A stretch of 41,257 nt of DNA from positions 1-41,257 of IMG/VR virus record IMGVR_UViG_3300034198_012662, one strand, 5' to 3'. The notes below the pieces were generated by a model. The model did not search any database. It worked only from the letters and a program-made list of their open reading frames with translations, and had not been told where the DNA came from. Positions 11,095 to 21,669 of the stretch are shown here, piece by piece. This DNA is from a virus. Every line of letters begins with the position of its first letter. Position 1 is the first letter of the stretch. Made by a program: the position numbers and the translations under genes.

Positions 11095-11119
11095 AAGGTG
11101 GTTTTAACCACCTTTTTTT
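11095..11119 (+). terminator. intrinsic terminator before the large terminase gene
   Basis: Stem AAGGTGG/CCACCTT with loop TTTTAA and a T-run. It ends the upstream operon immediately before the terminase promoter motif. Confidence 0.88.
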
Positions 11120-11120
11120 A

Positions 11121-11128
11121 TATTTATA
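11121..11128 (+). promoter_or_regulatory. TATTTATA late-type promoter motif, 4 bases from start codon
   Basis: TATTTATA lies between the terminator and the terminase ATG with only 4 bases to the ATG. If it is a -10-type element, transcription would begin at or next to the start codon. Confidence 0.6.
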
Positions 11129-11132
11129 ATAT

Positions 11133-12905
11133 ATGAATCAAAGAATAGAACAATTAAAGGAGTACGCTAAAATACTTAAGGATACCCCATACGCATTAAA
11201 AACCTATTTACAAACATACGATAATACACAAAAGAAATTTGTACCGTTAGAATTATTTCCTGACCAAATACAGTTACTTAATGATTACGAAAAGTATAAT
11301 GAAAATATAACAAGAAAGTATAGACAGGCCGGTGTTACTACGGTAACAGCTGCATGGATATCAAAGAGATTACAATTCGCTAAACCAGAAAATCCTGAAA
11401 GAGTTCTTGTAATTGCTAACAAACGAGACACCGCAATTGAAATGGCCAATAAAATAAGAGCATTCTTAGAACAATGGCCTGAATGGATTAATGTTGGTTT
11501 TTCACCTGATAAAAACGCTGAAAGTAGATTTAAATTAAATAATGGTTGTGAAGTTAAAGCAGTTGCAACATCCGCCGACGCTTTACGTGGTTATACACCA
11601 ACCATTCTTGTATTTGACGAAGCGGCATATATTGAGGCGGGTGATGATTTTTGGGCAGCATCTATGGCGTCTCTTTCTACAGGTGGTAAGATAATATTAA
11701 TATCTACACCAAATGGTTTTGACCCAATTTATTATGGTGTATATGACCAAGCGTTACGTGGAATAAATGATTTTCATATTACAGATTTAAGATGGTTTAA
11801 GGACCCTCGATACACAAAGGATTTAAGATGGGTAAAATGTGAGGATATTGTTCATTATATGTTGAATAGAGAACTTTATGATGATGATAAAGTTGTGTTA
11901 CATGATTTTGATATTAACAAATATAGAGAATATGAGGAGCAAGGATATAAACCATTTTCAGGATGGTTTGAATCAATGTCAAAGAAATTCAAATATGACA
12001 AAAGGAAAATTGCACAGGAATTGGAGTGTGATTTCTTAGGTTCTGGTGATGGTATTATACCTAGTGATGTACAAGATAATATTGCTAAAAATATGATAAG
12101 GGTTCCTAAAGAAAAGTATATGCAGGGAACATTTTGGCAATGGAAAGAACCAATAGAAGGACATAGATACATAATGGGGGTTGATGTTAGTAGAGGTGAT
12201 AGTGAAGATTTTTCTTCGATAAACATTATTGATTTTGATGATAGGGAACAAGTTGTTGAATACATTGGAAAAATACCACCAGATGATTTGGCGTCAATCG
12301 CATATAAATGGGGGGTTTTATATGATTCATTTATTGTAATTGATATTACGGGTGGTATGGGTGTTGCAACATCCAGAAAACTACAAGAAATGAATTATAA
12401 AAATTTATTTATTGATGGTGTTAATACACAAAATATATGGGAATATAATAAAAAAGGTATTGAGAAGATTCCCGGTTTAAATTTTAATAATAAAAGAACA
12501 CAAATAATTGCGTCTTTTGAAGAACAGGTCAGAAAAGGGTTTTCAATTAGGTCTAATAGATTATTAAATGAATTAAACACATTTGTTTATATAAATGGAA
12601 GACCTGACCACATGAAAGGGGCTCACGATGACTCAATAATGAGTTTATCAATGGCTCTTTATGCGGGTGAAATTTGTTTTAATCAACTAAAAAGAAACGA
12701 TTCACAAAATAAATCAATGTTGGAATCATGGACGTTATCTGAAAGAACATATGAACCAAATAAGACGTTTTATTCATATGGAACAACATTAGACCCTTTA
12801 GGTGCATTACAAGTTAGTGGTGACTTTTATCATAAAGATAACCCAATGAAAGTAAGTAAAGACGCATATAGTGAATATTCTTGGCTTTTTGGTAAAAGAA
12901 AATAG
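11133..12905 (+). CDS. terminase large subunit (T4 gp17-like)
   Basis: The 590-residue DNA-packaging motor has an ATPase with a degenerate Walker A RQAGVTT at residues 64-70, Walker B ILVFDEAA at 158-165, and coupling motif STPNG at 191-195. The C-terminal RNase H-like nuclease has GVDVSRGDSEDF with Asp351, DITGG with Asp404, and HDDS with Asp499/Asp500. It powers DNA translocation into the prohead through the portal and cuts the concatemer at head filling. It is followed by portal, protease, scaffold and capsid genes in T4 order, but no tail sheath or tube genes lie between terminase and portal as in T4. Confidence 0.97.
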   Translation: MNQRIEQLKEYAKILKDTPYALKTYLQTYDNTQKKFVPLELFPDQIQLLNDYEKYNENITRKYRQAGVTTVTAAWISKRLQFAKPENPERVLVIANKRDTAIEMANKIRAFLEQWPEWINVGFSPDKNAESRFKLNNGCEVKAVATSADALRGYTPTILVFDEAAYIEAGDDFWAASMASLSTGGKIILISTPNGFDPIYYGVYDQALRGINDFHITDLRWFKDPRYTKDLRWVKCEDIVHYMLNRELYDDDKVVLHDFDINKYREYEEQGYKPFSGWFESMSKKFKYDKRKIAQELECDFLGSGDGIIPSDVQDNIAKNMIRVPKEKYMQGTFWQWKEPIEGHRYIMGVDVSRGDSEDFSSINIIDFDDREQVVEYIGKIPPDDLASIAYKWGVLYDSFIVIDITGGMGVATSRKLQEMNYKNLFIDGVNTQNIWEYNKKGIEKIPGLNFNNKRTQIIASFEEQVRKGFSIRSNRLLNELNTFVYINGRPDHMKGAHDDSIMSLSMALYAGEICFNQLKRNDSQNKSMLESWTLSERTYEPNKTFYSYGTTLDPLGALQVSGDFYHKDNPMKVSKDAYSEYSWLFGKRK

Positions 12906-12946: not shown

Positions 12947-12954
12947 TATTTATA
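12947..12954 (+). promoter_or_regulatory. TATTTATA late-type promoter motif, 3 bases from start codon
   Basis: TATTTATA ends 3 bases before the portal ATG at 12958. Confidence 0.6.
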
Positions 12955-12957
12955 TAC

Positions 12958-14751
12958 ATGGCTGAAAATCAAAATTTAACAATATTTCAAAAATTAACTA
13001 GAATGTTTGGGTTTCCTGGTCAAACAAAACCAGATGAAAAACCCACATTTAATTTTTCTAAAGACGAACTTTTAAAAACACCAAGTAGAGAAGAGTTTGA
13101 AAAAAGTCTTTTACAATCACAACAAAGTCAATATATCACAGATAAATGGACTAAGTTAGACCAATCGTTATATAATCAATCCGTTTACTATGAACCGAAT
13201 AGATTAGCAGCATATTATGATTACGAATCTATGGAATTTACTCCTGAAATATCTGCGGCTCTTGACATTTATGCTGAAGAATCAACAACGGTATCTGAAA
13301 AAGGACAAATTTTAACGATATATTCTGAATCTGAAAGAGTTAAAAAAATACTTGAAGATTTATTTAATAATAAATTAGATATAAACACCAATTTACAAAT
13401 GTGGACGAGAGGTCTATGTAAGTACGGTGACAATTTCGTTTATTTAAAAATACATCCTGAAGAAGGTATAATTGGTTGTCAACAATTACCAAATATAGAA
13501 ATAGAAAGATTGGAGGGTGCATCATCAAAGACTCCAAATCAAAAAGATATTAAGATGCCAACCAGAGAATTGAGATTCCAGTGGAAAAATAAAGACTTGG
13601 AATTTCAGTCATGGGAAATCGCACATTTTAGATTATTAGGTGATGACAGAAAATTACCATACGGTACTTCAATGTTAGATAAAATAAGAAGGATATGGAA
13701 ACAACTCTTACTTGCTGAAGACGCGATGTTAATTTATAGAACATCAAGAGCACCTGAAAGACGTGTGTTTAAAGTATTCGTTGGTAACATGGATGATAAA
13801 GATATTGAGGCATACGTACAAAGAATAGCGAATAAATTTAAAAGAGATCAGATTACCGACCCAAAGAATGGTCAGGTGGATATGAGATACAATCAAATGT
13901 CTGTTGATCAAGATTACTTTATACCTGTTCGTGACCCATCATTAACTAATCCAATTGAAACATTACCAGGAGCACAAAATCTTGGGGAAATTGCTGATAT
14001 TGAATATATTCAGAAAAAACTATTGGCGGCATTGAGAATACCAAAGGCGTTCTTAGGTTTTGAAGAAGTGGTTGGTGAAGGTAAAAGTTTAGCTTTAATG
14101 GATATACGTTTTGCCAGAACTATAAATCGAATTCAAAAATCGTTAGTTCAAGAACTTAATAAAGTAGCATTAATACATCTATATCTTTTAGGACTTGAAG
14201 ATGAATTAAATAACTTTAATTTAACGTTAACAAACCCATCCGCACAGTCTGACTTATTAAGAATAGAACAGTGGAAGGAAAAAATAACACTATATAAGGA
14301 CGCTACTTCCGACCAATCTCAGGTCGGTATTTTACCTGTATCACATACTTGGGCTAAAAAGAATATTTTAGGAATGAGTGATTCTGAAATCATTCTTGAC
14401 TTACAACAACAAAGACTTGAAAGAGCAATGGGTACCGAATTAACAAATACACAAAATATTATAAAGAGATCTGGTGTATTTGATGAGGTCGATAAGAAAT
14501 ATGGAATTCCTGAAGAAGAAAGAAAGAAATTAGAATCAAGTTCTTCGGGACAGCCTCCTGAAGGTGGAATGGGTGCGGAAATGTCATCTGATCCAACACC
14601 ACCACCAGCTGGGGAACCTCCATTAAGTGAATCAAAAGCACCAAAATTATTTAATTCAAGTTCTTTAGATGGATTATTTGATATAGAAAGGGCACAACAG
14701 AATATTTATGAAATAGAAAATAAATTGAAAGATATATTAAACGACAATTAA
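12958..14751 (+). CDS. portal protein (T4 gp20-like)
   Basis: The 597-residue protein has the T4-type portal pattern. The N-terminal region has an EFTPEISAALDIYAEES stretch near residues 91-107, a central region with GTSMLDKIRRIWKQL, and a well-conserved RIPKAFLGFEEVVGEG segment at about 360-375, followed by long stem helices. The last 80 residues are a flexible Pro/Gly/Ser-rich tail. The portal forms the dodecameric ring at the capsid vertex, nucleates prohead assembly and docks the terminase. It starts 52 bases after terminase and ends one base before the next gene. Confidence 0.95.
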   Translation: MAENQNLTIFQKLTRMFGFPGQTKPDEKPTFNFSKDELLKTPSREEFEKSLLQSQQSQYITDKWTKLDQSLYNQSVYYEPNRLAAYYDYESMEFTPEISAALDIYAEESTTVSEKGQILTIYSESERVKKILEDLFNNKLDINTNLQMWTRGLCKYGDNFVYLKIHPEEGIIGCQQLPNIEIERLEGASSKTPNQKDIKMPTRELRFQWKNKDLEFQSWEIAHFRLLGDDRKLPYGTSMLDKIRRIWKQLLLAEDAMLIYRTSRAPERRVFKVFVGNMDDKDIEAYVQRIANKFKRDQITDPKNGQVDMRYNQMSVDQDYFIPVRDPSLTNPIETLPGAQNLGEIADIEYIQKKLLAALRIPKAFLGFEEVVGEGKSLALMDIRFARTINRIQKSLVQELNKVALIHLYLLGLEDELNNFNLTLTNPSAQSDLLRIEQWKEKITLYKDATSDQSQVGILPVSHTWAKKNILGMSDSEIILDLQQQRLERAMGTELTNTQNIIKRSGVFDEVDKKYGIPEEERKKLESSSSGQPPEGGMGAEMSSDPTPPPAGEPPLSESKAPKLFNSSSLDGLFDIERAQQNIYEIENKLKDILNDN

Positions 14752-14752
14752 A

Positions 14753-15490
14753 ATGAAAAAATTCGGACAAATAAAAAATAAGTTTTTTAGTAAGATGTTG
14801 GAATCATATACCACTAACAAAAAAGATGTTACTAAATTAATGAATATTATAAATGAAGATAAAAACTTTAAAGAGTTATATCTTTTATATGAAAAAGTTG
14901 AGAATCAATACTTTAAAGATAAGGAGACCGCAATTCAGTATGTGAATGAATTAAGTAGTTCATTAAAAGGTAAAAATAAATTAGTTTCCGAAACACTTAA
15001 AAAATTAGACAATTCTATTGGTGATATTGAGACAAAGTATTTTGCTGTATATGATTCATTAGATAGTCTTCTTGAAGAAGATAACTTATTAAACATTGAA
15101 TCAAAGGTAAGAGCTAAGATAGATTTAGTAGAACATCTAACAAGTAAAAAAGATATAACAGAGTCTGGAGTACCTCAAAATTTCTCACAAAATGAAAACT
15201 TATTGCATTCGGTATTAGTAAATAATTTTAATGTGTTGTATAATCACATATTAAGTGAAGAAGAAAAGGAAGATTTTAAAAATATAGTAGCAATGTCAGA
15301 TGATGACATTAAAACAAAAACCGAAGAATTAAAAGAAAATATAATATCTAAAGTTAATAATCTTTTATCAGAATCTTTAGAAATCGACTTTTTAGATAAA
15401 TTACAAAATGTAAAAGATGAGGTTATTAAAACAACACCATCTAAATACGGTTATTATAAACTAAAAGAATTAAAGAAAGGTCTAGATTAA
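14753..15490 (+). CDS. helical probable prohead core protein (245 aa)
   Basis: The protein is Lys/Glu-rich and predicted mostly helical, with coiled-coil-like stretches at about 20-125 and 165-235. The start is basic (MKKFGQIKNKFF). It occupies the place of T4 genes 67/68, small prohead core proteins between portal and protease, but I see no residue-level similarity to them. Several (L/I)-x-E sequences (for example LLEE and ILSE) could be protease sites. Its stop overlaps the 3' end of the convergent bS21 gene by 4 bases. Confidence 0.65.
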   Translation: MKKFGQIKNKFFSKMLESYTTNKKDVTKLMNIINEDKNFKELYLLYEKVENQYFKDKETAIQYVNELSSSLKGKNKLVSETLKKLDNSIGDIETKYFAVYDSLDSLLEEDNLLNIESKVRAKIDLVEHLTSKKDITESGVPQNFSQNENLLHSVLVNNFNVLYNHILSEEEKEDFKNIVAMSDDDIKTKTEELKENIISKVNNLLSESLEIDFLDKLQNVKDEVIKTTPSKYGYYKLKELKKGLD

Positions 15491-15681
15491 TTATCAAGAC
15501 TTTCTCTCTTTTTTTGGACATATTTTGCTTTAAGTATTTCACTTCTTCTTTTGACTGAAGGTTTTACATACTCTTGTCTTTCTCTTAATTGCTGAATTAA
15601 TCTAGTCTTTTGAACTTTATTTTTTAATGTTTTAAGAGCGTTTTCAATGTTCTTTTCTTTGTTTAATTCTATTACTAACAT
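15487..15681 (-). CDS. rpsU: ribosomal protein bS21, phage-encoded
   Basis: The 64-residue basic helical protein has the bS21 pattern: N-terminal VIELNKEKNIENALKTLK strand-helix, central RERQEYVKPS, and a Lys/Arg-rich C-terminal helix. It resembles the Bacteroidota form rather than the proteobacterial one. bS21 binds the 30S platform near the 3' end of 16S rRNA; in Bacteroidota, bS21 with bS18 and bS6 hides the anti-Shine-Dalgarno. Tyr54 is present, the position I recall as contacting the rRNA tail. The leader is AT-rich with no Shine-Dalgarno, so host-type autoregulation of rpsU would not apply. It stands alone against the direction of the head genes. Confidence 0.88.
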   Translation of the reverse strand: MLVIELNKEKNIENALKTLKNKVQKTRLIQQLRERQEYVKPSVKRRSEILKAKYVQKKRESLDN

Positions 15682-15785
15682 ATTTTAAATATTATATTTT
15701 AAATATATCGAATATTTTTGTTTAATTAAAATATTTTACATATTTTTTTAAAAACACCATAAAATATAATATTATAATGAGATAA

Positions 15786-16216: not shown

Positions 16217-16240
16217 ATATCCCGATATTTATTGGGATAT
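16217..16240 (+). promoter_or_regulatory. hairpin over the start codon of the prohead protease, with TATTTATT in its loop
   Basis: ATATCCC (16217-16223) pairs with GGGATAT (16234-16240). The right arm includes the first two bases of the ATG at 16239. The loop contains TATTTATT (16226-16233), 5 bases from the ATG. If the transcript starts upstream, the start codon would be partly sequestered; if it starts at the motif, the hairpin cannot form. Confidence 0.45.
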
Positions 16241-16922
16241 GAATGAGATAAAATTCAAAGACGGTAGACATCTTTTAATTGAATACGACGCGGGTCACGT
16301 GTCCCCTGAGGATAATAAACATTTAATTTCCGAAATGAAGAATATGGATTTTTCACAAGATCTGATTCTTTATGCTGTTTTACAAAAATATGATACCCCT
16401 AACAAAAACGGAAGAATATATCCGGAAGTAATTCTTAAAAGAGAAAACGAAAAATATCAATCTCTAATTAAAAAAGGTGGTGCATTAAATGAGTTAAACC
16501 ACCCAACATCTTCACTTATTGACTTAGATAGAGTTTCTCATTCCATATTGGAAACGTGGTGGGAAGGTAAAATGTTAATGGGTAAAATTAAGTTATTTAC
16601 CTCACCGGGATGGAAAAAGATGGGTATTGTATCTACTAAGGGTGACCAAGCCGCAATGTTGATAATGAATGGAGCCACATTAGGTATATCATCAAGAGGT
16701 GTTGGTTCATTAAAACAAGTTAAAGGTCAAAATATTGTTCAAGATGATTTTGAATTAGTTTGTTTTGATTTGGTATCATCCCCATCAACACCAGGTGCAT
16801 ATGTATTTTCAGATCCTTCTGAAAGAGAACAATATCAAGAAATGGTTCAAGAAAAACCAATTGTTGATGATAGAATGAAGAAATTAATGTTTAATCTTGA
16901 TTCATTCTTATCTAAGAAATAA
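16239..16922 (+). CDS. prohead core protease (T4 gp21-like, peptidase S80)
   Basis: The 227-residue serine protease of the herpesvirus/T4 assembly-protease type has a core with NGRIYP at residues 57-62, ELNHP with candidate catalytic His88, and LGISSRG at 148-154 with candidate catalytic Ser151 or Ser152. A VCFDLVSSP strand follows. In T4 this enzyme sits inside the prohead and cleaves scaffold, capsid and internal proteins after (L/I)-x-E. Several proteins encoded here carry such sites. It precedes the scaffold and capsid genes in T4 order. Confidence 0.93.
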   Translation: MNEIKFKDGRHLLIEYDAGHVSPEDNKHLISEMKNMDFSQDLILYAVLQKYDTPNKNGRIYPEVILKRENEKYQSLIKKGGALNELNHPTSSLIDLDRVSHSILETWWEGKMLMGKIKLFTSPGWKKMGIVSTKGDQAAMLIMNGATLGISSRGVGSLKQVKGQNIVQDDFELVCFDLVSSPSTPGAYVFSDPSEREQYQEMVQEKPIVDDRMKKLMFNLDSFLSKK

Positions 16923-16971: not shown

Positions 16972-16979
16972 TATTTATA
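16972..16979 (+). promoter_or_regulatory. TATTTATA late-type promoter motif
   Basis: TATTTATA ends 18 bases before the scaffold ATG at 16998 and probably drives scaffold plus capsid expression. Confidence 0.55.
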
Positions 16980-16997: not shown

Positions 16998-18224
16998 ATG
17001 GCAGAAAAATCTATTTTAGAACAAGCGTTACTTCAAGTTCAAACACTTGAGGAAGCAGTTAAGCAAAATGCAAAGGGTATACTTGCTTCTACTATGAAAC
17101 AAGAACTAAATGAATTGCTTAAAGAATCACAAGAAGAAGAGGAGGAATCAACTGAAGCATCCACTCCTGAAGAATCAAAAGTCATGTCAGACGAAAGTAC
17201 TGAAGAGAAAAAAGAGGAAGTATCCAAACCCGAAGAGGAAGAAGAAATGTCTAAACCTGAAGAGGAAGAAGAAATGTCTAAACCTGAAGAGGAAGAGGAG
17301 ATGTCTAAATCCGAAGAGGAAGAAGAAATGTCTGACTCCGAAGAGGAAGAGGAAGAATCCGATATCGATTCAGATATGGATACGGATATGAATTCAGATA
17401 TGGATGTTGATAGTCCATCATCAGATGATGACGTTATGGATATGACACAAGCTTCACATGATGAGCTTATGAAAGTATTTAAGTCAATGAAACCCGAAGA
17501 TGGTGTTGTAGTTAAAAAAGATGGTGATGATATATCATTAGAAACAGGTGATGATGAATTTATCATCAAACTCGACGAAGAGGAATCTAATATTTCAGAA
17601 GATTGGAATGAATCCGAAATGGAGGAAGAATCTAAAATGGAAGATGAAGAAACCGTATATGAAATCGAGTTAGGTGAGGAAGAAGAAGAGGAGTCAAAAA
17701 CTGAAGAAGATGAGGAATCTAAAAAAGTTGAAGCTACTGAAGCTGCAAGAACAAAAACAAATGCTCATGGTGACAAAGGTGGTGCAAATCGTCTTGGTAT
17801 CAAGGGTAAGAAAGTGTTCAGAGCAGGTGCCCCAATTAATGAAGAAGTTGAAAACTTGAAAAAACAGAATAATGAGTATAAAAAAGCTCTAGTTCTTTTC
17901 AAGGAGAAACTAAACGAAGTTGCGGTATTCAATGCTAATTTAGCTTACGCTACACGTCTTTTCACAGAACATTCTACAACAAAAAAGGAGAAACTAGAAA
18001 TTTTAAAGAGATTTGATACTGTTTCTACCATGAATGAATCCAAAAAATTATATACCTCAATTAAGGATGAATTAGTATCTAGAAAACCTATTACTGAATC
18101 CGTAGTTGAGAAAATCTCTACAACGCCAACAACTTCTAGTTCTGCTGAGATTTTATCAGAGTCTAAGGCTTATGAGAATCCTCAGTTCAGAAGAATGAAA
18201 GATTTGATGGCAAAAATAAAATAA
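16998..18224 (+). CDS. prohead scaffold protein (T4 gp22-like), strongly acidic
   Basis: The 408-residue protein has an N-terminal helix with an I-L-E site (MAEKSILEQ), then a very long Glu/Asp/Ser-rich region (about 45-260) that includes five 9-residue repeats of the type KPEEEEEMS. A basic linker (about 255-275) and a C-terminal coiled coil (280-340) follow. The protein ends with several possible protease sites (ITE, ILSE) and MKDLMAKIK. In T4 gp22 forms the inner scaffold that shapes the prohead and is degraded by gp21. Position between protease and capsid genes supports this. Confidence 0.85.
   Translation: MAEKSILEQALLQVQTLEEAVKQNAKGILASTMKQELNELLKESQEEEEESTEASTPEESKVMSDESTEEKKEEVSKPEEEEEMSKPEEEEEMSKPEEEEEMSKSEEEEEMSDSEEEEEESDIDSDMDTDMNSDMDVDSPSSDDDVMDMTQASHDELMKVFKSMKPEDGVVVKKDGDDISLETGDDEFIIKLDEEESNISEDWNESEMEEESKMEDEETVYEIELGEEEEEESKTEEDEESKKVEATEAARTKTNAHGDKGGANRLGIKGKKVFRAGAPINEEVENLKKQNNEYKKALVLFKEKLNEVAVFNANLAYATRLFTEHSTTKKEKLEILKRFDTVSTMNESKKLYTSIKDELVSRKPITESVVEKISTTPTTSSSAEILSESKAYENPQFRRMKDLMAKIK
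17223..17354 (+). repeat. 27-bp tandem coding repeat in the scaffold gene
   Basis: Five head-to-tail units (the last partial) of a 27-base sequence encoding Lys-Pro-Glu5-Met-Ser, with copies at 17223, 17250, 17277, 17304 and 17331. Differences between units are mostly synonymous Glu codon changes plus Lys-Ser and Asp-Ser variants, so copy number probably varies by slippage or recombination. Confidence 0.9.
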
Positions 18225-18257: not shown

Positions 18258-19988
18258 ATGGGAGCATTATTAGAATCAGGTATGGTTGGTAACATCGGTT
18301 TAAAACACCTTCGTGTTATCAAAGAAGATACCATTAAAAAGTGGGATGACCTAGGTTTCTTAGAGGGACTAGACGGACATCAAAAAGACAACATCGCTCA
18401 GTTGTATGAAAACCAAGCATCATATTTAATTAATGAAGCTGCGGTTGCGGACGCATCAGGTTCTTTCGAAACTGTTGTATTCCCTATCATCAGACGCGTG
18501 TTTTCTAAATTATTAGCTAACGACATCGTGTCTGTACAAGCTATGAACTTACCAATCGGTAAGTTATTCTATTTCATTCCTAAAATTCAGGAAAGAAATA
18601 ATGAGGCACATTATCATCCTTATGGATGGCCTAACACTAGTAACGGTGCTGGTGCTGGTTATCCTGCAACTGCAAGAAACCTTTACGATCGTTTCTATGA
18701 GTCAGGTGATGGTAACGCAGCAGATACCGGTCTTTTTGACTATTCAAAAGGTGAGTATTCTGCAGTAACTCTTAACGGAGACGCAATTGTTACATTCTCA
18801 AATGGTGTAGTTTCAACTGTAAGTGCACCAACAATTACTGGTACTTCTGTATCTTCAGTAATTATTAAATTCTCTGGTTTCACTAAAGATGGTCAGGGTA
18901 AATTAATTGGACCTAATGGTAACGTAATGGATACTGAGGAATTCTTAGCATCCGCTACTGTTAGTTACTCAGGTGTATCTAGAAACTTCAACGTGGTAAC
19001 ACAGAAGTATGGTAAAGGTATTGTTGAGTATGGTCAGAAATCTACTGCATCTGGTTTCCCTACAGGAAACTATAATGACATCTGTGATGAGGAAGGTTCA
19101 ATCTACATTTCTGTTGATTTACAATCTTATTCTTCAACATCAGGTTTCTCTAATCTAGTTCTTCCTCAAGCATTTACTGCTGATGATGTTACATTAGAAT
19201 TTAGAGTATATGATACTTTAGAATTTGAGGATCAGATTGGTGAAGTTTCTTTTGACCTTCAGTCTGTAACTGTGTCTGTAACTGAAAGAAAGTTACGTGC
19301 TACATGGTCTCCTGAATTAGCTCAAGATGTTAGTGCATTCCACAACATTGATGCTGAAGCTGAATTAACTTCATTATTGTCAGAGCAAATCGCTGCTGAG
19401 GTTGACCGTGAGATTTTACGTGACCTTAGAAAAGGTGCCGCTTGGACATCTAAATGGGATTACAACGAATGGAAATACGGTGCAACTGGTAACACTCCTT
19501 TCATGGGTTACACTCAGAAAGACTGGAACCAAACATTGGTTACCAAAATTAACCAAATTTCCGCTCAAATCCATAAAACAACCTTAAGAGGTGGAGCAAA
19601 CTGGATTGTGGTATCTTCGGAGATTTCCGCAATTTTCGATGACCTAGAATACTTCCACGTAACAAACGCTGAACCTGAGCAAGATCAATACAACATGGGT
19701 ATTGAGAAAATCGGTTCACTTTCTGGAAGATATCAGGTTTATCGTGACCCATACTTCCCACCTAACAAAGTGTTGATTGGACATAAGGGTAAATCATTAT
19801 TGGATGCTGGTTACATCTACGCTCCATATGTACCTCTACAATTAACTCCAACAATGTATAATCCTTTCACTATGACACCTATCAAAGGTATCATGACCCG
19901 TTACGCTAAGAAAATGGTTAATAACCGTTATTTTGGTGTGATTACTGTGAACGGTATTACTACATTCAATTTGGATACCTTAAGATAA
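18258..19988 (+). CDS. major capsid protein (T4 gp23-like)
   Basis: The 576-residue precursor has the gp23 signature of an N-terminal delta region, then SYLINE|AAVADASG with a prohead protease site after Glu60. This matches the T4 FLTE|AE site near residue 65. The HK97-fold core continues with VVFPIIRRVFSKLLANDIV and QAMNLPIGK. An insertion-like beta-rich stretch spans about 165-345. The C-terminal part has the TPFTMTPIKGIMTRYAKK strand. Codon choice differs from its neighbours, with many TTC, AAC, ATC and GGT codons, as expected for the most expressed late gene. A strong terminator follows. Confidence 0.97.
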   Translation: MGALLESGMVGNIGLKHLRVIKEDTIKKWDDLGFLEGLDGHQKDNIAQLYENQASYLINEAAVADASGSFETVVFPIIRRVFSKLLANDIVSVQAMNLPIGKLFYFIPKIQERNNEAHYHPYGWPNTSNGAGAGYPATARNLYDRFYESGDGNAADTGLFDYSKGEYSAVTLNGDAIVTFSNGVVSTVSAPTITGTSVSSVIIKFSGFTKDGQGKLIGPNGNVMDTEEFLASATVSYSGVSRNFNVVTQKYGKGIVEYGQKSTASGFPTGNYNDICDEEGSIYISVDLQSYSSTSGFSNLVLPQAFTADDVTLEFRVYDTLEFEDQIGEVSFDLQSVTVSVTERKLRATWSPELAQDVSAFHNIDAEAELTSLLSEQIAAEVDREILRDLRKGAAWTSKWDYNEWKYGATGNTPFMGYTQKDWNQTLVTKINQISAQIHKTTLRGGANWIVVSSEISAIFDDLEYFHVTNAEPEQDQYNMGIEKIGSLSGRYQVYRDPYFPPNKVLIGHKGKSLLDAGYIYAPYVPLQLTPTMYNPFTMTPIKGIMTRYAKKMVNNRYFGVITVNGITTFNLDTLR

Positions 19989-20013
19989 TCTTAACGATTG
20001 TCAATATAAAAAA

Positions 20014-20037
20014 CCCCACAGAAATGTGGGGTTTTTT
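20014..20037 (+). terminator. intrinsic terminator after the major capsid gene
   Basis: Stem CCCCACA/TGTGGGG with loop GAAA, flanked by A-run and T-run, so it may also work on the opposite strand. Confidence 0.92.
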
Positions 20038-20066
20038 GTTTTTAATTAAATTTGTATATTTGTGTT

Positions 20067-20372
20067 ATGGAAACAAAAGAATACGAAACATTAAGACTGG
20101 ATGTTATTCGTCGTCTAATTGACGAAAGAAATATCGAATGTAAAGACAAAAGGGATGAGATGATTACTTATCTAAAATTATACGATGAAGGTAAGTACGT
20201 GAGAGAAACAACCTATAAAAAAGATGGAGATGGATATATTGTGGGTATTGATTTATCCAATAGAAAACACCTTCAAGATATTGCTAGATTGGTTGAAAAG
20301 AAGGAAGCGAGATGTCTTAGTCGTTATTGTGATAATAGACTACAATACCATTCAAATCAGAAATTAATATGA
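20067..20372 (+). CDS. small SAP-like helical protein (101 aa)
   Basis: The ATG at 20067 is preferred over the TTG at 20052 because a TATATTTG element, resembling the Bacteroidota housekeeping -7 box (TAnnTTTG), occupies 20055-20062. The N-terminal 40 residues (LRLDVIRRLIDERNIECKDK...MITYLKLYDEG) follow the helix-extended loop-helix pattern of SAP DNA-binding domains. The C-terminal half is basic with two Cys. The stop overlaps the dCMP deaminase start by 4 bases. A nucleic-acid-binding role is inferred; the SAP match is by eye. Confidence 0.65.
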   Translation: METKEYETLRLDVIRRLIDERNIECKDKRDEMITYLKLYDEGKYVRETTYKKDGDGYIVGIDLSNRKHLQDIARLVEKKEARCLSRYCDNRLQYHSNQKLI

Positions 20373-20809
20373 ATTGGACCGAATATTTCTTATTGATAGC
20401 GGAAAGTGTAAAACTTAAGTCTAAGGACCAATCAACCCAAATTGGGGCTGTTATTGTTGGTAAAGACAGAGAGATTTTATCTACCGGATATAACTCATTT
20501 CCAAGGGGTCTGGACGATAATTTATTGGAAAGACAGGAAAGACCCGAGAAATATTATTTTATGATACACGCGGAAGCAAATGCAATTGTAAATGCCGCTA
20601 GAACAGGTGTGTCAATAAAAGATTCAATAATGTTTTTAACTTGTGGTATTCCTTGTGCTGAATGTGCAAAATTAATTATCAATAGTGGAATTAAAGAAGT
20701 TTTTTGTAAAAATACACAAAATGATGTTAAAGGTGAACATTGGGTTGAATCTAAAAACAAAACATTAAAAATGTTTAAGGAGTGTGACGTAAAATTGAAT
20801 TATTATTAA
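20369..20809 (+). CDS. dCMP deaminase (zinc-dependent)
   Basis: The 146-residue cytidine/deoxycytidylate deaminase fold has HAEANA with His67, the catalytic proton shuttle Glu69, and the zinc ligands of PCAEC (Cys96, Cys99). It converts dCMP to dUMP, feeding thymidylate synthesis. The dUTPase at 33059-33661 supplies the same product from dUTP, which fits an AT-rich phage genome. The protein resembles the ComEB/T4 Cd family in length. It is coupled to the upstream SAP-like gene by a 4-base overlap. Confidence 0.95.
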   Translation: MNWTEYFLLIAESVKLKSKDQSTQIGAVIVGKDREILSTGYNSFPRGLDDNLLERQERPEKYYFMIHAEANAIVNAARTGVSIKDSIMFLTCGIPCAECAKLIINSGIKEVFCKNTQNDVKGEHWVESKNKTLKMFKECDVKLNYY

Positions 20810-20829: not shown

Positions 20830-21669
20830 ATGAAACCACTATATAAAATAAATGAAAAGTATTTTGAAAATATCGATACGGAGGATAAGTCTTATTTTTT
20901 AGGTATTATTTTTGCTGATGGATATTTAAATGATAAAAGAAAATATTTATCAATCTCATTACAAGAAACAGATGTTGATATATTGGAAAAATTAACATTA
21001 TCGATAGAAACAAATAAACCATTACAATACATAATTAGAAAAGAGGTAAACACAAGTAATCAATATCGATTATTAATTACAAGAAAAAAAATTGTTGAGG
21101 ATTTAAAAAAATTAGGTGTTCATCAAAATAAAAGTTTAACATCTAAGCCCGATAATATTACTTTTTCTAATGACATTTTACTGAAACATTTTCTCAGGGG
21201 TTATTTTGATGGTGATGGTTCATTAACATACTATAAAGTAAAAAATACACTCAATTCTTCAATTAATATTGTCTGTACTAATGAATTCTATAATTATTTT
21301 TCATCATTTATTTCAAATGTTTTATTGATTAAAACAACTAGAGGTAAAAGATTTAATGATAATAAAAATTGTTATGATTTGAGAATTTGTGGGAATAGAA
21401 ATGTTATCAAATTTTTGGATTATATTTATTCAGATTCTAATATTTTTTTAGAAAGAAAAAAACATAAATTTATTCAATTTAAAAAAATTTATGAAAATAA
21501 AATTAACAAATCTTTAGGTGATACTGTAACGATAAATGTTATAGATAAAACATTTTATTCATTCAAAGAAGCGTCAAAATATTTTAAAATACCCTTAACC
21601 ACGTTCAAAAGAAATATTAAAAATAACCCAAATTATATGGGGTATGAATGGACAATAACTCGTAAATAG
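20830..21669 (+). CDS. LAGLIDADG homing endonuclease, free-standing
   Basis: The 279-residue protein has two LAGLIDADG motifs, FLGIIFADGYL at residues 23-33 and FLRGYFDGDGSL at 121-132, each with the catalytic Asp. It is therefore a monomeric two-repeat enzyme. The C-terminal 45 residues (VIDKTFYSFKEASKYF... to MGYEWT) look like a NUMOD-type helix-turn-helix DNA-binding module. The adjacent dCMP deaminase ORF is complete, so this is a free-standing gene and not intron-borne. Such genes spread by cutting endonuclease-less alleles. It is more AT-rich and Lys/Asn-rich than its upstream neighbour. Confidence 0.9.
   Translation: MKPLYKINEKYFENIDTEDKSYFLGIIFADGYLNDKRKYLSISLQETDVDILEKLTLSIETNKPLQYIIRKEVNTSNQYRLLITRKKIVEDLKKLGVHQNKSLTSKPDNITFSNDILLKHFLRGYFDGDGSLTYYKVKNTLNSSINIVCTNEFYNYFSSFISNVLLIKTTRGKRFNDNKNCYDLRICGNRNVIKFLDYIYSDSNIFLERKKHKFIQFKKIYENKINKSLGDTVTINVIDKTFYSFKEASKYFKIPLTTFKRNIKNNPNYMGYEWTITRK

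Follow-up and report, generated by a model that had tools for sequence, protein, structure and literature searches.

In a 41,257-nt viral sequence (IMG/VR record IMGVR_UViG_3300034198_012662, positions 1 to 41,257; hereafter the window), we detected a gene for ribosomal protein bS21 that lies antisense to the head genes and whose product, in our best explanation, would replace host bS21 in the 30S subunit of a Bacteroidota host (a probability of roughly 0.55 for this explanation taken as a whole). The open reading frame starts with ATG and its 64-residue product matches Pfam PF01165 (E 1.8e-12, 47.2 bits against a cut-off of 27), TIGR00030 (E 1.5e-10, 40.7 against a cut-off of 28.95) and PHROG 21469 (annotated as ribosomal protein S21). 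Its best solved relative is bS21 of the Flavobacterium johnsoniae ribosome (PDB 7jil chain z, E 2.2e-12). The AlphaFold model (pLDDT 87.7) predicts helices at residues 12-26, 28-36 and 41-63, and all 11 PDB matches of a fold search with this model look like mitoribosomal bS21, at weak scores (best E only 0.28). The nearest cellular bS21s are nearly all from Bacteroidota, the closest (about 46-52% identity) being from Owenweeksia, Cyclobacteriaceae and Flammeovirgaceae MAGs. Judged by these matches, the protein belongs to the Bacteroidota kind of bS21, and the gene map (Table 1) agrees with the first-pass annotation, which had described a 64-aa bS21 homologue inverted among head genes.

Table 1. 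Features of the head-gene region of the window and of the divergent bS21 locus
Feature	Coordinates	Strand	Remark
Terminator-like hairpin ahead of TerL	11095..11114	+	
TATTTATA motif upstream of TerL	11121..11128	+	
Terminase large subunit (TerL)	11133..12905	+	
TATTTATA motif upstream of portal	12947-12954		
Portal protein	12958..14751	+	
Conserved convergent neighbour of bS21, 245 aa	14753..15490	+	No assigned function
Phage bS21 (rpsU-like), 64 aa, Tyr54, SD-less leader	15487..15681	-	Profile and PDB matches
Divergent intergenic region, 104 bp	15682..15785		Common to bS21 and the 141-aa partner
-7-like element TATATTTA, 26 nt upstream of bS21 start	15700..15707	-	Putative promoter role
ACACCATAAAATA, conserved ahead of the 141-aa partner gene in the close clade	15754..15766	+	Putative function
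Conserved divergent neighbour of bS21, 141 aa	15786..16211	+	No known family
Prohead protease	16239..16922	+	
TATTTATA motif upstream of 408-aa gene	16972-16979		
Acidic 408-aa protein between protease and MCP, scaffold-like	16998..18224	+	Putative function, from position
Major capsid protein (MCP)	18258..19988	+	
Terminator-like hairpin past MCP	20006..20039	+	

TerL, portal and the 245-aa gene lie on one side of bS21, and the 141-aa gene, the protease, the 408-aa gene and MCP on the other; the stop codons of bS21 and of the 245-aa gene overlap (15487-15490). Further along, a deaminase-like ORF (20369-20809) precedes an ORF (20830-21669) whose LAGLIDADG-like stretch (FLGIIFADGYL) suggests a possible homing endonuclease; both were recognised by eye.

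This arrangement is conserved in related phages. Using the protease to scan viral contigs, we retrieved 80 loci (87-91% identity), 79 of which carry bS21 in the same place on the opposite strand; in the 80th (L241), the contig stops short of where the sister loci have it. The gene is on the strand opposite to its 141-aa neighbour in 163/163 loci that hold both and to its 245-aa neighbour in 161/161 fetched loci, with many of the contigs in both counts being near-copies of one another. Ten pairs of relatives gave a dN/dS of 0.08-0.13 for bS21, so the gene is kept by purifying selection. Two records stand apart: a Prochlorococcus single-cell contig (L092) has a phage-type bS21 and probably represents phage DNA within the single-cell assembly, and a viral contig (L172) has a host-type rpsU with an alternative-anti-SD leader and probably represents host DNA within a viral contig.

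Huge phages of freshwater Bacteroidetes that encode bS21 were described as clades a-e by Chen et al. 2022 (PMC9723584), who also published the antisense placement, Tyr54 and the idea of ribosome substitution. The window shares with those phages a reverse-strand bS21 flanked by two hypothetical genes within the TerL-portal-protease-MCP region, an aromatic residue 54, a co-conserved neighbour on the opposite strand (bS21_CN), PhoH and Clp genes, and an N-terminal helix that has diverged from that of hosts. It differs in being a 41 kb fragment and another member, likened to them by locus layout. A phage-encoded bS21 is likewise found among the viral bS21s that include that of Pelagibacter phage HTVC008M (Mizuno et al. 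2019, PMC6375957), although phage group and host type differ from those of the window; the HTVC008M protein is reported to be taken up into E. coli ribosomes (cited in PMC9723584).

The bS21 gene and the head genes have separate upstream motifs. In distinct upstream regions of the clade, TATTTATA precedes TerL (27/29), portal (32/32), the protease (28/31) and the 408-aa gene (29/31). Within the window, 11 of its 21 occurrences lie no more than 60 nt ahead of a gene, where 0.7 are expected, and the same motif stands upstream of genes in two large relatives (G186, 56 versus 4.1 expected; G005, 51 versus 3.7), which makes it a likely phage-specific promoter element of the structural genes. For most relatives we rejected membership of bS21 in this class, since TATATTTG takes its place in 25 of 35 distinct leaders, 24-26 nt ahead of the start (TATATTTA in the window), and only 8/35 have TATTTATA. 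The -7 box of Bacteroidota is TAnnTTTG. A -33-like TTTG or TTG is additionally present in only 14/46 bS21 leaders. Thus bS21 would be read from a -7-like element of its own, a putative promoter in the divergent region shared with the 141-aa partner, whose gene is preceded by a third element, ACACCATAAAATA.

A TTTG-N18-21-TAnnTTTG class was also detected in the 287-kb relative G186 (22 versus 2.3 expected) and is plausibly early and read by the host polymerase. At about 140-170 kb of this genome (L293-L298), a cluster of small genes, plausibly the early region, has TTTG-N18-21-TATATTTG upstream, resembling a Bacteroidota host promoter. We found no terminator-like hairpin between the 245-aa gene and bS21; the head-gene stretch has hairpins only at its two ends, so late transcripts could run antisense through bS21. 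The separate motifs agree with Chen et al. (PMC9723584), who state that the TerL-to-MCP region is not one operon. The same authors found bS21 transcripts to be abundant, alongside those of structural genes, in phages apparently in late replication (PMC9723584), and against this co-expression, a bS21 motif unlike that of the structural genes counts against our best explanation.

The bS21 proteins of the clade differ from those of hosts in a defined region. Comparing 52 distinct clade sequences with 67 distinct Bacteroidia host sequences, we found positions 8 and 10 to be acidic in 67/67 hosts but basic in 37/52 and 50/52 clade sequences, and positions 14, 18, 21 and 30 to be basic in 67/67 hosts but in only 2, 0, 0 and 1 of the 52 clade sequences. 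Position 24 is acidic in 65/67 hosts and 0/52 clade sequences, and position 27, basic in 7/67 hosts (mostly Gly), is Lys or Arg in all 52 clade sequences. The mean net charge of residues 1-31 is nevertheless alike (4.57 versus 4.75). The C-terminal rRNA-tail region is conserved between clade and hosts in the alignment: K40, R46 and A52 are each invariant (52/52 and 67/67), and position 54 is Tyr in 49 and His in 3 of the 52 clade sequences and Tyr in 62/67 hosts. As read from these alignments, residues 8-30 carry a fixed charge rewrite beside an unchanged C-terminal rRNA-tail region. The bS21 of F. johnsoniae (McNutt et al. 2023, PMC9976891; PDB 7jil) is homologous over 63 residues and about 44% identical to that of the window, in which Gly27 is replaced by Arg and the N-terminal charges are rearranged; Tyr54, which the first-pass annotation had pointed out, aligns with Tyr54 of F. 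johnsoniae. Chen et al. call Arg21, Phe23, Asp25 and Thr28 divergent in phage bS21 (PMC9723584). Other phage bS21 groups have Lys/Arg27 and Gln28 without the full charge pattern. In the tree, the phage bS21s group together (SH-aLRT 89) except for one host-like contig, and the 64 columns resolve little else.

In our best explanation, a phage-specific bS21 would, during infection, take the place of host bS21 in the 30S subunit. The C-terminal half with Tyr54 would anchor it and keep the anti-Shine-Dalgarno (anti-SD) tail of the 16S rRNA tucked away, so that ribosomes would stay competent for the SD-less mRNAs used throughout the phage, and the rewritten residues 8-30 would be where an altered mRNA choice, or exchange with host bS21, arises. 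The protein would be expressed from a separate, divergent transcription unit whose leader is short, A/T-rich and SD-less. Where the host has a strong-SD rpsU, phage bS21 would fill bS21-less ribosomes and host rpsU would be turned down through its own loop; with the phage gene outside that loop, the effect would be one-way. We thus infer incorporation, its timing, loop capture and the effect on mRNA choice. The charge rewrite could alternatively be a fit to a slightly different rRNA, or an escape from a protease, and not concern mRNA choice.

A simpler possibility, to which we give about half the weight or less, is that phage bS21 is equivalent to the host protein and only completes ribosomes once host synthesis stops, leaving mRNA choice as it was and capturing no loop. 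The retained Tyr54 and C-terminal region fit such a role, the absence of an SD would simply be the phage default, and because Flavobacterium ribosomes that lack bS21 handle SD-less mRNAs poorly (PMC9976891), a stock of bS21 would benefit any phage there. An equal copy, however, needs no near-fixed changes at positions 8, 10, 14, 18, 21, 24, 27, 28 and 30, and the phage proteins form one lineage apart from those of hosts, bar the one host-like contig noted above.

The 22-nt leader of bS21 pairs with the 16S tail at +1.8 kcal/mol at best, i.e., it has no SD, as the first-pass annotation had claimed. This value lies above the -13 kcal/mol below which the extended SD of autoregulated rpsU falls, and the leader differs in this from the F. 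johnsoniae host type (-14 to -21 kcal/mol; PMC9976891). The lack of an SD, which had been taken as distinctive of bS21, turned out to be the default of the whole phage: no gene among the 51 tested in the window reaches a 16S-tail pairing below -6 kcal/mol, and relatives are alike. In G186, SD-like pairing below -6 occurs before 12/355 starts against 55/355 control windows, which were taken 60-84 nt upstream and differ in base composition from the region before starts. We therefore rejected SD absence as a special signal of bS21.

On the host side, we surveyed rpsU leaders in 110 Bacteroidia genomes sampled evenly across the class, grading an SD as strong when pairing was below -10 with either anti-SD form and as weak when above -6. 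Strong SDs were found in 20 and weak ones in 79, and a TAnnTTTG box lies at most 40 nt from the rpsU start in 68/110 leaders. None of 31 distinct clade leaders has a strong SD (strongest pairing -4.7 kcal/mol), against 20/110 hosts (Fisher P = 0.007, with rows that are not independent). The rpsU leaders of the nearest cellular homologues (Owenweeksia, Cyclobacteriaceae, Flammeovirgaceae MAGs) have no strong SD. According to McNutt et al. (PMC9976891), rpsU pairs below -13 in about 80% of Flavobacteriales and about 20% of Cytophagales, autoregulation of rpsU was demonstrated in F. johnsoniae, host mRNAs are SD-less as a rule, and ribosomes deprived of bS21 or of its C-terminus are poor initiators on SD-less mRNAs and do better on rpsU with a strong SD.

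Several apparent exceptions were rejected. Phage rpsU genes with a strong SD (L005, L168 and others) are no counter-examples, because other genes on those contigs use SDs too (median about -5), which points to phages of SD-using hosts. Contig L172 was set aside as host-like, being of the same type as alternative-anti-SD host rpsU. The AGGAGG of the L028-group leaders resembles a retained SD but is no stronger than chance, since 24-nt control windows in the same genome are equally strong (10/333 below -10 versus 6/333). The leaders of L028, L029 and L058 read AGGAGG, 7 nt, and an in-frame ATG-TAG or ATG-TAA just ahead of the bS21 ATG; in those of L057, L060 and L061 both AGGAGG and the stop codon are lost.

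The premise of a host feedback is therefore host-dependent, given the difference between Flavobacteriales and Cytophagales. The first-pass annotation had assumed a strong SD in host rpsU, which agrees with the published Flavobacteriales but with only the minority of Bacteroidia leaders surveyed here, and not with those of the closest homologues; the proposed escape from feedback stands as regards the SD-less leader and holds only if the host has such feedback. The loop may be absent from the phage's own host. This bears on an extended version of our best explanation, which we consider unlikely and place somewhat below plain completion of ribosomes: that a charge-rewritten bS21 hides the anti-SD and shuts off SD-driven host rpsU in a one-way capture of the loop from which its own gene is exempt, while its N-terminus alters the preference among SD-less mRNAs with the 141-aa partner assisting.

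Less probable still is the original proposal, that the SD-less leader was selected for escape from autoregulation and that exchanging bS21 biases translation in favour of SD-less phage mRNAs. The difference in strong-SD frequency between clade and host leaders speaks for it, but with every phage gene SD-less, selection on the bS21 leader is not needed, and many host rpsU genes are SD-less too. Nor is the shift itself upheld: because nearly all host mRNAs are SD-less (PMC9976891), a swap acting through the anti-SD provides no SD-based discrimination and cannot by itself favour phage messages. The SD argument for phage bS21 is thus weak.

The 141-aa partner is found in every locus with bS21 and the protease, and is probably the bS21_CN (fam498) of Chen et al., with which we equate it by position. 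We obtained no informative match for it with Pfam, PHROGs, PDB profiles, fold searches against PDB and BFVD, or phage tblastn; the sole match of its model is an uncharacterised myovirus protein (A0A8S5L9A5, E 1.7e-11). Its predicted alpha/beta model is confident (pLDDT 87.9, pTM 0.84) and has no PDB match. The constancy of this partner, the conserved place among head genes and the possibility of virion packaging raised by Chen et al. (PMC9723584) would suit a bS21 that acts mainly off the translating ribosome, either as a packaged virion component or together with the 141-aa protein, but we regard this as improbable, since the conserved rRNA-tail region and Tyr54 are what ribosome binding requires and location among head genes is by itself uninformative on virion content.

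A phage-borne bS21 is a known trick of Bacteroidota phages, to which the window adds another case; new here are the charge rewrite at positions 8, 10, 14, 18, 21, 24, 27 and 30, the leader survey and the difference in promoter motifs. The leader survey means that the SD argument alone gives no selectivity for phage over host messages. With that route excluded, any such selectivity would have to come from elsewhere, for which the rewritten N-terminal region is a candidate. The bS21 case bears on the debated question of whether phages build specialised ribosomes, and it is unusually testable in Bacteroidota, since it is known how the loss of bS21 affects mRNA choice and F. johnsoniae offers working reporters. 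The most useful result is the set of fixed charge differences, which singles out the residues for exchange between the host and phage proteins.
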